DNA from: Candidatus Eisenbacteria bacterium
Lineage (GTDB): Bacteria; Eisenbacteria; RBG-16-71-46
Length of the DNA stretch: 64,000 bases
Assembly (NCBI GenBank): GCA_020847735.1
Contig: JADLBL010000026.1
Location: 1 to 64,000 of the forward strand
Direction of reading: 5' to 3'
Shown: in pieces, positions 19,097-48,087 of the stretch
Layout of the letters: every line of letters begins with the position of its first letter
How positions within the stretch are numbered: the first letter of the stretch is position 1
The notes under the pieces: generated by a model
Seen by the model: only the letters and a program-made list of their open reading frames with translations
What the model was told of the DNA's origin: nothing
The model's database searches: none
Program-made: the position numbers and the translations under genes

Positions 19097-20530
19097 TCAG
19101 GCGACCCGCCGGCGGAACCTCGCCGGCAGGATGTTCAGCTGTTCGCGGTACTTGGCCACGGTGCGGCGGGCGATGCGCAGGCCGCGCTCGTGGAGCAGCT
19201 CCGCGATCCGCTGGTCCGACAGCGGATCCTTCTTGTCCTCCTCGTCAATGAGCGTCCGGATGATGTCCTTCGCGGTGCGGGCCGACACGTCCTCGCCGTC
19301 GTCCGTCTCGAGCCCGCTCGAGAAGAAGAACTTGAGCTCGAACACGCCGCGTGGCGTCTGCACGTACTTGCCGCTGCACACCCGGCTCACGGTGGATTCG
19401 TGCATGTCGATCTGGCGCGCCACCTGCGCGAGCGTCAGCGGGCGCAGGAAGGCGATGCCCTTGTCGAAGAACTCGCGCTGCTCGCGCACGATGCAGTTCA
19501 TGACCTTGATCATCGTGCGCCGGCGCTGCTCGATGGTCTGGATCAGCCACTTGGCGGACGCCAGCTTCCCCTGGATGAACTCGCGGGTCTGCTTCTGCTC
19601 GGCGGTCGCGTCGGCCTTCTTCTTCTCGCGAATCACCGTCTCGTACGCGGACGAGATCCGCAGCCGTGGAACGTTCCGGTCGTTCAGCATGACGAGGTAC
19701 TCCTCGTCCACGCGCTCGACGAGCAGGTCGGGCGTCACGTAACGCGGGTCGTCCGCCGAGACGGCGGTGCCCGGCCGAGGGTTCAGCGTCGCGATCTCGT
19801 CGGCGGCCGCCTGCACTTCCTCGACGCCGGTCTTGAGGAGCCGGGCGATCTCGGGGAAGCGGCGGTTCACGAGGTGATCGAAGTGATCGTGGATCAGCCG
19901 CCACGCCATCGTGTCGCGGTCGCCGCGCGCGTCGAGCTGGATCAGCAGGCACTCGCGCAGGTCGCGGGCGCCGACCCCGATCGGCTCGAGCGCCTGAACG
20001 ACGGCGAGCACGCGCTCGATCTCGTCCGCCGGCCGGCCGAGGGCCTCGACGATGTCGGCCATCGGCGTGACCAGCCAGCCGCGCTCGTCGAGGGAGCCCA
20101 CCAGGAACTCGGCGATCGTCATCTGTTCCGCGGGCAGGTTCAGGAAGTGGAGCTGCTCGAGCAGGCTCTCGGCGAGCGTCACGCGGGTCACCGGCACCTT
20201 CTCGAGGAACTCGATGCTCGTCTCGCTCTGCGGCACGTAGGTGCGGTCGAGGCCGTCCTGCATGTACTCCGACCAGTCGATCGCGTCCTCCTCGCCCGGC
20301 TCCTCGGCTTCCTCGTTGTTCTGCTCGTCGGCCGAGTTCTCGCGCTCGATGTCCTCCTGCTCGGCGAGATCGTCCACCTCCTCGAGCAGCGGGTTCTGGA
20401 GAACCTCCTGCTTGAGGATCTGCTGGAGCTCGAGCGTCGGCACCTGCAGCAGCTTGAGCGCCTGCTGCAGGCGGGGAGTCATGATGAGCGACTGCTTCTG
20501 CTGCAGGTGCAACGAATGCTTCATTTCCAT
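19097..20530 (-). CDS. rpoN: RNA polymerase sigma-54 factor
   Basis: A 477-residue sigma-54. Region I (residues about 1-50) is Gln/Leu-rich (QQKQSLIMTPRLQQALKLLQ), followed by an acidic region II, the core-binding region, and the C-terminal RpoN box ARRTVAKYRE that reads the -24 element. It starts 13 nt after lptB. Its likely partner activator is the NtrC-type regulator at 45416-46804. A second ATG lies two codons inside the chosen start. Confidence 0.97.
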   Translation of the reverse strand: MEMKHSLHLQQKQSLIMTPRLQQALKLLQVPTLELQQILKQEVLQNPLLEEVDDLAEQEDIERENSADEQNNEEAEEPGEEDAIDWSEYMQDGLDRTYVPQSETSIEFLEKVPVTRVTLAESLLEQLHFLNLPAEQMTIAEFLVGSLDERGWLVTPMADIVEALGRPADEIERVLAVVQALEPIGVGARDLRECLLIQLDARGDRDTMAWRLIHDHFDHLVNRRFPEIARLLKTGVEEVQAAADEIATLNPRPGTAVSADDPRYVTPDLLVERVDEEYLVMLNDRNVPRLRISSAYETVIREKKKADATAEQKQTREFIQGKLASAKWLIQTIEQRRRTMIKVMNCIVREQREFFDKGIAFLRPLTLAQVARQIDMHESTVSRVCSGKYVQTPRGVFELKFFFSSGLETDDGEDVSARTAKDIIRTLIDEEDKKDPLSDQRIAELLHERGLRIARRTVAKYREQLNILPARFRRRVA

Positions 20531-44784: not shown

Positions 44785-45011
44785 GGGAGGGAGCGCGGAC
44801 GATAGCACGCGCCACAGGGCCGGCCGCCGGAGCAGGATGCGGGCGGCTCCGGCATCCGTGCCGGTAACCGCACCGCGCGAACCGGAGGGGACGGCCTGCC
44901 TTGACTCGGAGCCCCCGGTTCAATGCGCGCCCGTAGGGGCGTTCAAAGTTGAAGGGCGGCCGGCGATCAAGCCGACGCGCCCTTCAGGACGTGCCAGGTC
45001 CAGACAACCGG
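44785..45011. other. Intergenic region with a hairpin (44951-44985)
   Basis: No gene is seen. The 8-bp inverted repeat GAAGGGCG/CGCCCTTC (44951-44958 and 44978-44985), with GC-rich pairing inside the loop, lies 27 nt past the peptide gene and may be its terminator, although no U-tract follows on the minus strand. Confidence 0.4.
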
Positions 45012-45077
45012 TTACTTCTTCTTCGCGGCCTTCTTCTTCGTGGCCTTCTTCTTCGCAGCCTTCTTCTTGGCAGCCAT
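45012..45077 (-). CDS. 21-residue Lys/Ala repeat peptide (histone H1-like)
   Basis: After MAAKKK come three A-A/T-K-K-K pentads, then TAA: 12 of 21 residues are lysine, the rest Ala, one Thr and Met. The ATG is preceded by GGAGGAGGTGATC, an excellent ribosome binding site seven bases away, so it is likely translated. The composition is that of the Ala/Lys tails of histone H1, bacterial Hc1-like and AlgP-like proteins, which bind DNA or RNA; a role as a nucleoid- or ribosome-binding microprotein is inference. Each pentad is a 15-base direct repeat. A longer frame upstream (to 45326) has unconserved text and no good start. Confidence 0.6.
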   Translation of the reverse strand: MAAKKKAAKKKATKKKAAKKK

Positions 45078-45344
45078 TCGGGGATCACCTCCTCCGCATT
45101 CACTCGATTCGTTCGTGCTCTGCGGACTACCGTGATGGCGACGCGGACGAATCCGAGCGGTCGCGTCTCGCCCGAGTGCTCCAGCACGGCCCGTGCCAGT
45201 CGCTGGTGGCCGAACTGGCGGCATGACGTAATACCCATTGAACAATGGCTTTAGCGACTCATGCTGGCCTGGGATGCGGACTGATGCGGCGTGCGATCGC
45301 CGAACTTGAAATCTTCTAAGTGTCAATAAACTAGCTTCTTACGC
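45078..45344. other. AT-richer intergenic region with leader of the small peptide
   Basis: The stretch is visibly less GC-rich than the surrounding genes. It contains the palindrome CCATTG-AA-CAATGG (45235-45248), a -10-like TATTAC on the minus strand near 45229-45234, and the sigma-54-like element listed separately. No protein frame with a credible start was found; a small RNA or a long regulated leader is possible. Confidence 0.4.
45183..45199 (-). promoter_or_regulatory. Sigma-54-like -24/-12 element upstream of the small peptide
   Basis: Minus strand CTGGCACGGGCCGTGCT: the -24 half is a perfect TGGCACG, GG (45197/45196) and GC (45185/45184) have the correct 10-bp gap, and the -12 box is GTGCT, one base off TTGCT. 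Expected start near 45172, a 95-nt leader. It also reads as a palindrome GCACGG-C-CCGTGC. A near-identical element lies upstream of lptC. Confidence 0.45.
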
Positions 45345-45383
45345 CGAAAACGAAACGCATCTCGTTGTCTGCACACGAGATGC
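45345..45383 (-). terminator. Intrinsic terminator of the two-component operon
   Basis: A perfect 9-bp stem GCATCTCGT (minus-strand arms 45375-45383 and 45357-45365) with a 9-nt loop, followed on the minus strand by the T-rich GTTTCGTTTTC. It is the only hairpin in the window with a clear U-tract. Confidence 0.75.
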
Positions 45384-45415
45384 GCGGTGGTGTCCAGTTT
45401 GTTGCGTCCGTCCAG

Positions 45416-46804
45416 TTACTTGACAGTCCTGGCCTCCTCGATGCGAAGCCGTCGCAGTTTCTCGATCAGCCCCTGTCGGGAGATGCCCAGGATGCGCGCC
45501 GCCCGGCTCTTGTTGCCGGAGGTCATGCGCAGCACCTCGCTGATGTGATCCGCTTCGATCTGCGCGAGCGTCGGCAGCCCGAGCACGTCCCGCACCGCCG
45601 CAACCGCGGTGCTCGCCGGCGCGGTGCGGCGTCCGAGCAGCTCCGGCGGGAAGTGCTCCGAGTCGATCTGCTGGCCCTCCTCGAGCAGGACGACGCGTTC
45701 GATCAGGTTGCGCAGCTCGCGGACATTGCCCGGCCAGGGGTATTCGAGCAGCACGCGGCGGGCCTCGGGCGTGAAGTCGTCGAACGATTTCTGGAACTTG
45801 CGCGAGAACTCCCGCATGAAGTGCCGCGCCAGCATCAGCACGTCCTCGCCCCGCTCGCGCAGCGGCGGCAGGGTGATGGACACGACCTTGAGCCGGAAGT
45901 AGAGGTCGCCGCGAAACCGCCCGGCCCGCACTTCCTCCTCGACGCTCTTGTTAGTGGCCGCGACGATGCGGATGTCCACCGAGATGTCGTGCGCGCCGCC
46001 GACCCGCTTGAAGTTCCGATGATCGATGAATCGCAGGAGCTTGGCCTGCGTGGGCAGCGGCATGTCGGCCACCTCGTCGAGAAAGAGCGTACCGCCGTCG
46101 CACAGCTCGACGAGCCCCTTCTTGGTGTCGGAGGCGTCGGTGAAGGCGCCCTTCTCGTGGCCGAACAGTTCGTTCTCGAGCAGCGCCTCCTGGAAGGAGG
46201 AGCAGTTCACCTCCATCAGCGGCGCCTGGGCGCGGTCGCTTCGGTAGTGCACCGCGCGCGCCACCAGTTCCTTGCCCGTCCCGCTCTCGCCCGAAATCAG
46301 GACCGAGGTCGCCTTGCTGCGGACGACCTTGTCGATCAGGGCGCGCACTTCGCGCATCGCGGCCGACTGCCCGATGATCTCCTCGCCGGAGTAGTGCTGC
46401 CAGGCGCGCCGGCGGTAGAGATCGAGCTCGGTCGCCTGCCGGAAGTTCCGGCCGGCGGACTCCACGGCCAGCACGATGTCCTCCAGCTCGTAGGGCTTCC
46501 GCACGAAGTCGCAGGCGCCGTGCTTCATGGCGTCCACCGCGGTCTGCACGTCACCGTAGGCGGTGATGATGATGATCTGGAGCAGCGGATCGAGCTGGCG
46601 CGCGCGGCGCAGCACCGACAGCCCGTCCGTGTCGGGCAGGCGCATGTCGAGGATCATCACCTGCGGCCGGACCTCGCCCACCTTCTCGAGGCCCTCGGCT
46701 CCGGTGCTCGCGACCTCCACGGCGTAACCGCGCGCGCGCAGGACCTTGCCGAGCGACTTGCGGATCAGGAGTTCGTCGTCCACGACCAGCACGGAGGTCT
46801 TCAC
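45416..46804 (-). CDS. NtrC-family sigma-54-dependent response regulator
   Basis: A 462-residue activator. The receiver domain has the acidic pocket VVDDE and phosphorylated D53 (MILDMRLPD) and K104 in VRKPYE. The AAA+ domain has Walker A GESGTGKE (172-179), the sigma-54 contact loop GAFTDA (219-224, standard GAFTGA), Walker B FLDEVAD and the arginine finger region RFRGDLYFRL. The C-terminal helix-turn-helix is of the Fis type (NKSRAARILGISRQGLIEKLRR). GTG start with GGAGGAG upstream. It should act with RpoN encoded at 19097-20530. Confidence 0.95.
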   Translation of the reverse strand: MKTSVLVVDDELLIRKSLGKVLRARGYAVEVASTGAEGLEKVGEVRPQVMILDMRLPDTDGLSVLRRARQLDPLLQIIIITAYGDVQTAVDAMKHGACDFVRKPYELEDIVLAVESAGRNFRQATELDLYRRRAWQHYSGEEIIGQSAAMREVRALIDKVVRSKATSVLISGESGTGKELVARAVHYRSDRAQAPLMEVNCSSFQEALLENELFGHEKGAFTDASDTKKGLVELCDGGTLFLDEVADMPLPTQAKLLRFIDHRNFKRVGGAHDISVDIRIVAATNKSVEEEVRAGRFRGDLYFRLKVVSITLPPLRERGEDVLMLARHFMREFSRKFQKSFDDFTPEARRVLLEYPWPGNVRELRNLIERVVLLEEGQQIDSEHFPPELLGRRTAPASTAVAAVRDVLGLPTLAQIEADHISEVLRMTSGNKSRAARILGISRQGLIEKLRRLRIEEARTVK

Positions 46805-46808
46805 GGCG

Positions 46809-47909
46809 TCACTCCTCCGTCTTGCCGGGCGGCTCGGCCGGCAGCGGCAGGGAAACGCGCAGCGTCGCGCCTCCTCCCGGGTTGTTCCTGGCCGTCACCA
46901 CGCCTCCGGTGTCACGGACGATCTGCACCGAGATCGGCAGGCCGAGTCCGGTGCCCATCGAGCGCGTGGTGAAGAACGGGTCGAAGATCTTCTCCATCAG
47001 ATCGCGGGGAATCCCCACGCCCGTGTCGCGGATCGAGACGTCCACGAGCGACCGGCGCGTGCGATAGCGTCGCACGCCGGTGGCGATGGTCAGCGTGCCT
47101 CCTTCGGGCATGGCCTGCGCGGCGTTGATGCACAGGTTGAGGAACACCTGCTGCATCAGGTCGGGATCCACCTCGACCAGCGGCAGTCCCTCCATGAACT
47201 CTCGGATCACCGCCACCTGCAGGTCCGCGAGCTGCGCCGACATGAGGTCGAGCGTGCGCTCGAGCACCTGGTGAAGGTCGCACGGCTGGGGCCGCGCCTG
47301 CGGCGGGCGCGCGAACAGCAGCAGGCCGGTGATGATCTGCTCGATGCGATCCAGCTCCTTGATGACGTCGTCGAGGTCTTCGCGCCGCGCGTCGCGCGGC
47401 TTCAGCTTCGAGGCGACGAACTGGATGGTGGTGCGGATGCCCGTGAGCGGATTGCGGATCTCGTGCGCGACGTAGGCCGACAGCTCGCCGAGCGAGACCA
47501 GCCGGTCGATCTTCTTCTGGAACTCGCCGTCCTCGCTCTCGTAGATCGCCTCGGCGAGGATGACCGAGCCGGTCAGTTCGCCGTCCTCGTCGCGCATGGG
47601 CAGCGACTCCGCCTTGAGCGTGATCTCCCGTCCCTCGGTCTCGATCCGGAAATCCCGCGCCTCGCGGGTCGAGCCCTTGAGCCAGCGGGCCTCGGCGCCC
47701 GGAAAAACGCGATTGCCCGGCAGGCCGAGCAGCGCTCCGGGCTCGACGCTCAGCAGGTCCTCGAGGTGGCGGTTCGCGTAGACCACCTTCCGCTCGCGGT
47801 CCAGCGCCACGACGCCCTGCTCGAGCGTGTCCAGCACGGTGGCCGGCAGGGCCATCTCGCGGACGTCCGTTCCGCCTTCCGCGGGACGGTGGACGACGTC
47901 GGTGCGCAC
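46809..47909 (-). CDS. NtrB-like PAS sensor histidine kinase
   Basis: A 366-residue soluble kinase, partner of the regulator downstream. A PAS domain (about 25-125; LDTLEQGVVALDRERKVVYANRHLEDLL), the dimerisation/phosphoacceptor helix with H in SAYVAHEIRNPLTG, and the ATPase domain with N box NLCINAAQAM, G1 DTGVGIP, F box DPFFTT and G2 GTGLGL. No membrane segment is seen, so the signal is cytosolic. The GTG at 47909 has AAGGA upstream; the ATG at 47855 right before the PAS domain is an alternative, and an open frame runs back to 48026. Confidence 0.92.
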   Translation of the reverse strand: MRTDVVHRPAEGGTDVREMALPATVLDTLEQGVVALDRERKVVYANRHLEDLLSVEPGALLGLPGNRVFPGAEARWLKGSTREARDFRIETEGREITLKAESLPMRDEDGELTGSVILAEAIYESEDGEFQKKIDRLVSLGELSAYVAHEIRNPLTGIRTTIQFVASKLKPRDARREDLDDVIKELDRIEQIITGLLLFARPPQARPQPCDLHQVLERTLDLMSAQLADLQVAVIREFMEGLPLVEVDPDLMQQVFLNLCINAAQAMPEGGTLTIATGVRRYRTRRSLVDVSIRDTGVGIPRDLMEKIFDPFFTTRSMGTGLGLPISVQIVRDTGGVVTARNNPGGGATLRVSLPLPAEPPGKTEE

Positions 47910-48087
47910 GGTGCGATCCTTGGCGGTGCGAGGCGGACGTCCGCTCCCGCGCTCCCCTCCGGGCGCGCTCGGCGGCGGGGCCGATCCCTCGGCGTTGTGG
48001 ACGTGGGACAAGAGGTAGCACAGCACCCCGCGTCACGAAACGCCAAACTGGGCCGGGACTCGCGGCGCCGCAAGGCGTGGCGCCGCG

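Follow-up and report, generated by a model that had tools for sequence, protein, structure and literature searches.

A conserved lysine-repeat mini-gene next to a predicted sigma-54/NtrC two-component switch in Candidatus Eisenbacteria

Described lysine-repeat proteins and activator-linked transcripts

The chlamydial Hc2 proteins bind DNA, carry lysine-rich pentamers and range from 165 to 237 aa (PMC2848022), and Chlamydia Hc2/HctB is expressed from sigma-28 (PMC12282069). AlgP of Pseudomonas is also DNA-binding, and cells starved of nitrogen need it to space their polyphosphate granules evenly (PMC9239181). The mini-gene described here, located in a 64,000-nt stretch of DNA (the window) from Candidatus Eisenbacteria (Table 1), belongs to a family that shares with Hc2/HctB and the Bordetella-type H1-like proteins the lysine-rich pentamers, the wide size range and, by prediction, the use of an alternative sigma factor. 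It differs from Hc2 in that the predicted factor is sigma-54, with an NtrC-type activator gene adjacent, and in that the products measure 11 to 37 aa in the window's own family and four others and 54 to 150 aa elsewhere. Like the Lys-Ala-Pro tails of AlgP and PhaF in Pseudomonas, for which DNA binding has been reported, the product would be a disordered Lys/Ala-rich repeat; AlgP, however, joins KPAA repeats to a helical N-terminal domain, whereas the mini-gene encodes the repeat alone, and its 21-mer lacks Pro. The gene arrangement resembles CbrAB-CrcZ, in which a kinase and an NtrC-type activator are directly followed by a short sigma-54-dependent transcript, as is predicted here. CrcZ, in contrast, is non-coding and acts on Hfq/Crc, while at this locus no part is conserved as widely as the ORF, which is at odds with a non-coding transcript of the CrcZ type, and Hfq was not found in the four genomes searched. 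No published description of the mini-gene was found in the open-licence literature.

Table 1. Features of the mini-gene locus and associated regulatory genes in the window
Feature	Position	Strand	Remarks
Mini-gene, 21 aa (MAAKKKAAKKKATKKKAAKKK, then stop)	45077..45012	(-)	66-bp ORF ATGGCTGCCAAGAAGAAGGCTGCGAAGAAGAAGGCCACGAAGAAGAAGGCCGCGAAGAAGAAGTAA, ATG...TAA
Ribosome binding site GGAGGAGGTGATCCCCGA	45078..45095	(-)	near-invariant across 20 aligned loci
3′-UTR element TGGACCTGGCACGTCCT	44986..45002	(-)	near-invariant in f1
Terminator-like GC-rich hairpin GAAGGGCGCGTCGGC-TTGATC-GCCGGCCGCCCTTC	44951..44985	(-)	hairpin after the element also in relatives
-24/-12 (sigma-54) promoter TGGCACGGGCCGTGC	45184..45198	(-)	predicted +1 near 45172
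Predicted NtrC-type activator sites	45321..45425	(-)	TGTCAAGTAACTGGACG 45425-45409, TGGACA 45396-45391, TTGACA 45326-45321
NtrC-type sigma-54 activator	45416..46804	(-)	Pfam Response_reg + Sigma54_activat + HTH_8; presumed activator of the mini-gene
PAS-HisKA-HATPase sensor kinase	46809..48026	(-)	Pfam and synteny; presumed partner of the activator
Part of rpoN, sigma-54 DNA-binding domain	19106..19582	(-)	PF04552, E 2.9e-63

A 21-codon gene and its conservation

The mini-gene lies within the 607 bp that separate the start of uvrA (44808) from the stop of ntrC (45416), and this interval contains no other supported gene, as the original prediction had stated. The pentad repeat described there is present as well, except that the middle one of the three pentads reads ATKKK instead of AAKKK; the 21-mer has a net charge of +12 and is devoid of Asp and Glu. 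Within the ribosome binding site, GGAGGTGATCC complements the entire 3′ tail of bacterial 16S rRNA, whose sequence (GGATCACCTCC) is well established. This complementarity was judged from the universal tail because no rRNA was found in the organism's own assembly. The Shine-Dalgarno (SD) sequence GGAGGTGAT occurs three times in the 64-kb window, against 0.33 expected occurrences. The window gave no Rfam match at gathering scores and no tRNA.

For comparison, we used 47 genomes of Candidatus Eisenbacteria (Eiseniibacteriota), mostly drafts and all recorded as bins from metagenomes or as uncultured isolates, with program-assigned family labels f1 to f11, f1 being the family of the window. A DNA search of relatives recovered the block of SD sequence, ORF and 3′ element in 18 further f1 genomes; it is thus kept in 19 of 20 members, the exception being an assembly of 80% completeness (G011) in which no block was found, and it also occurs in other families. 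In the 18 aligned f1 loci (own included), GGAGGTGAT is followed within a few nucleotides by the start codon, a Lys-rich frame of 17 to 22 aa and then GGACCTGGCACGTCCT. Across f1 as a whole the peptides span 11 to 22 aa, the shortest being MAKKKAAKKKK of G017, whose 3′ element carries one change. Length changes of the f1 frame are in whole codons, while the spacer between the stop codon and the element varies by single bases. The same pattern extends to the 31 short orthologues (11 to 37 aa), all of which are open and differ by whole-codon steps, one of them with a GTG start; basic residues are retained where codons become AAA or AGG, as happens in f3 and f8, and every short orthologue examined has a conserved open frame with a ribosome binding site. 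The minimum numbers of changes at codon positions 1, 2 and 3 are 1, 6 and 6, counts that carry little information on a repeat of this sort. Lysine codon usage (AAG 354, AAA 10) is much like that of neighbouring genes (50 and 5).

A TTG-started in-frame extension of the 21-mer to 104 aa is mechanically possible. Neither form matched Pfam; in NCBIfam the 21-mer gave nothing at cut-off and the extension gave only a sub-threshold match to a valyl-tRNA ligase tail. We take the short form to be the gene because the conserved SD sequence and start codon lie inside the extension and the sequence upstream is not conserved as protein, which disposes of the alternative that the ORF is the 3′ end of a longer conserved protein. 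The search of relatives for a broken frame or an absent ribosome binding site likewise left the gene standing. As judged from this comparison, the 21-codon ORF is a genuine conserved gene, neither a chance frame nor the tail of a longer one, and the predicted very short gene with a strong ribosome binding site is confirmed in its exact ORF, its near-invariant SD sequence and its conservation in relatives. Standard gene finders are likely to pass it over.

A separate observation concerns alanine codons: in the short orthologues GCT accounts for 46 of 156, and three genes that neighbour the mini-gene in the window have it at 1 of 182. This bias is an oddity and not proof of high expression, because the S16 ribosomal protein gene of the same genome contains no GCT.

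Promoter, two-component genes and their distribution in the phylum

The gene had been thought free-standing, a point that requires correction, since it is the predicted output gene of the adjoining sigma-54/NtrC two-component system. The kinase gene and then ntrC lie immediately upstream of it and rpoN is located in the same window; the -24/-12 promoter, the enhancer-binding protein gene and the RpoN gene belonging to a sigma-54/NtrC-dependent gene are all found. The -24/-12 element is present in 18 of 18 aligned f1 loci (shuffle mean 0.36, maximum 3 of 18), and its strict form TGGCACN6TGC in 16 of 18 (0.02 in shuffles). Half-sites TTGACA/TGGACA stand at near-constant spacing from the promoter in most f1 loci, and sister families retain palindromes, e.g. 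TGTCCACAAAGTGGACA, as candidate activator sites. We infer from these features that expression of the mini-gene depends on sigma-54 and NtrC. Defining a whole regulon through the strict palindrome failed, as the pattern is too strict and misses even the window's own site.

By hand tally, a Lys-rich counterpart at this locus is present in 42 of the 47 genomes, and none of the 26 with a completeness of 90% or more is without it. The five genomes lacking one are drafts below 90% completeness, and in one of them the contig ends inside ntrC. The gene order HK-NtrC-RR-LysRich recurs in f2 to f6 and f8 to f11. Specifically, in f2, f5 and f8 (G032) a single-domain response regulator (RR; Response_reg match of 82.7 bits in f2) precedes the mini-gene, with the sigma-54 promoter placed between ntrC and the RR gene; f3 shows the same arrangement, with MAKKKAKAKKKKK and GGCCACGTCCT. 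In f4, f6, f9, f10 and f11, the gene after HK-NtrC-RR encodes a Lys/Arg-rich protein, here 54 to about 150 aa long; the products outside f1 as a whole range from 13 to about 150 aa. A canonical -24/-12 site occurs in f6, in two of two readable f9 loci and in three of four readable f10 loci, and imperfect forms only were seen by eye in f4 and f11. A search of four f1 genomes for the response regulator gave no match at E 1e-20, with f2 and f5 controls positive, suggesting that it was either lost from f1 or never there. In the NtrC tree, four paralogues fall outside a single supported group of orthologues, in which each multi-sequence family is one clade, a pattern consistent with vertical descent. 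One NtrC orthologue match (L151, G042) has a single internal TAG, which may reflect a pseudogene, an assembly error or an over-extended match.

In one f8 genome (G026, L137 3464-3520) the mini-gene MAAKKKAKKKVAKKGKKK stands before uvrA, and kinase, activator and regulator are absent from the 3.4 kb read upstream; the peptide gene is thus kept where the switch genes are not nearby, which indicates that the peptide itself is what is kept. A TTGACA-like promoter element lies upstream of this copy in place of the two-component genes. A pattern scan of 84,980 species, which demands the 3′ element and so covers element-bearing forms rather than long forms beyond the phylum, placed its real matches in Eisenbacteria bins only, one of them labelled Latescibacterota; the remaining matches had neither an SD/RBS nor an ORF.

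Judged by synteny and composition, the 21-mer represents a Lys/Arg-rich, H1/Hc2-like family in miniature, the proposed homology to the long forms leaning mainly on synteny because the polypeptide is of low complexity. The tandem lysine-rich pentamers typical of HC2 are present in the 21-mer. The Pfam HC2 model (PF07382), however, matched neither the 21-mer nor the 104-aa read-through, and the 96-aa orthologue of f11 reached 23.9 bits against a cut-off of 40. We therefore class the product, by sequence, as an H1-like lysine-repeat protein and do not file it as an HC2 member, since it misses that cut-off despite its Hc2/AlgP-like composition. The term “mini-histone” proposed for it is fair as a description of the sequence, given the longer Lys/Arg-rich, H1/Hc2-like orthologues of sister families, and its binding role is a prediction. 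A near-homopolymeric 21-residue ORF that standard annotation would likely discard can thus be a gene conserved since ancient times and served by a signalling system of its own, and H1/Hc2-like polycations would be linked to sigma-54 control. With lengths running from 11 to about 150 residues at orthologous positions, these proteins offer a natural experiment on how much of the lysine repeat is needed for function.

Proposed function and competing explanations

We consider it probable that the mini-gene is a translated microgene serving as the output of a dedicated two-component switch, its product being a sigma-54-induced, disordered polycation that binds polyanions. Gene and frame, ribosome binding site, promoter, sites, activator, RpoN and the phylum-wide conservation can be read directly from the DNA. 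In the proposed mechanism, the PAS kinase would phosphorylate the adjacent NtrC-type activator, which would bind the TGTCNA/TNGACA sites and open the sigma-54 promoter. The resulting short transcript would have a near-maximal Shine-Dalgarno sequence, end at the conserved 3′ element and hairpin, and be translated into a presumably abundant, disordered polycation of +12/+13, among the smallest of the Lys/Arg-rich H1/Hc2-like family that accompanies the switch throughout the phylum. This polycation would most probably act stoichiometrically on polyanions (nucleoid DNA, RNA/ribosomes or polyphosphate) when the kinase senses its condition, for which a cytosolic cue is our guess. Polyanion binding is proposed because of the composition and the published properties of Hc2 (PMC2848022) and AlgP (PMC9239181). 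The 11-aa form of G017 counts against DNA compaction, being small for such a protein.

The 3′ element, which the original prediction does not mention, complicates this picture. All 18 aligned f1 loci share its 16-nt sequence GGACCTGGCACGTCCT without a change, which makes it the strictest part of the f1 locus, conserved above the peptide codons; the core persists in f2, f3 and f5 as GGSCRCGTCCT and has drifted in f8. It is tempting to speculate that the sigma-54 transcript is bifunctional, encoding an 11-22 aa nucleic-acid- or ribosome-binding protein and carrying a 3′ element that regulates as RNA or binds a protein, the two forming the dormancy or starvation output of the phylum-wide two-component system. 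We regard this version as possible but distinctly tentative; if true, the peptides would rank among the shortest dedicated nucleic-acid- or ribosome-binding proteins, consisting essentially only of lysine pentads.

Alternatively, and in our judgment unlikely, the locus could exist chiefly for its RNA, which would be regulatory and sigma-54-dependent and would use TGGACCTGGCACGTCCT as a seed or to bind a protein; the ORF would then be secondary, or the transcript bifunctional. The conservation of the element over the codons is a hint in this direction, as are its position adjoining the terminator-like hairpin and the likeness to CbrAB-CrcZ, where an RNA lies beside its NtrC-type activator. Against it, the Lys-rich ORF persists in f4, f6, f9, f10 and f11, in which the element was not seen, and Hfq gave no match in four genomes (G000, G001, G012 and G030) with control genomes positive. 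The 11-mer TGGCACGTCCT is no more frequent than its control, and G012 contains no site that would pair with it perfectly. The two pairings considered fared no better: the family's 23S rRNA lacks AGGACGTGCC (longest shared stretch 8 to 9 nt), and CACGTCCT resembles the anti-SD sequence, yet sequestration of the SD is not predicted in five folded f1 transcripts (0 to 0.27 expected pairs). The element may bind a protein, act as an RNA with a short seed or stabilise the 3′ end.

Two further ideas about the element were rejected. As a conserved hairpin it fails, since the GGAC/GTCC stem shows almost no variation and is interrupted in f2; as a genome-wide motif it has 0 to 2 other copies per genome, no more than the reversed-pattern control. 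The hairpin that follows it has a T-run in some relatives and none in the window's own genome, with few compensatory pairs scored in the alignment, and a conserved 5′-UTR hairpin received partial support only.

We give very little credence to a leader peptide or attenuator of uvrA, in which ribosome progress over the Lys/Ala codons would set termination. The short ORF, its strong ribosome binding site, the hairpin past the stop codon and the position of uvrA as the next gene in many f1 members all fit such a leader. The uvrA frame, however, begins anywhere from tens of nucleotides to about 3980 nt downstream, a variable distance that leaves no conserved gene directly downstream and largely refutes the idea; moreover, an alternative antiterminator pairing was not seen, and the ORFs of sister families are 54 to 150 aa long. 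Hardly credible, finally, is the view that a longer Hc2-like gene is in decay and that what is left of it is still open by chance, a view which the 95-150 aa versions of sister families might suggest and the strong conservation of ribosome binding site, start, frame, 3′ element and promoter across f1 genomes contradicts.

Basic sequences also occur away from the two-component locus. Arg/Lys-rich H1-like proteins are encoded at L131 (G021:C34, 3321-3768, (-)) and L136 (G024:C42, 3357-3798, (-)), and ribosomal protein S16 at L141 (G000:C21) is extended at its C-terminus by a Lys-rich stretch (..RVKKKANPKKPKPKKK). A long ORF, topoisomerase-like by eye (L132, G025), ends in a Lys-rich repeat tail, so that such tails are also found on unrelated proteins of the phylum.
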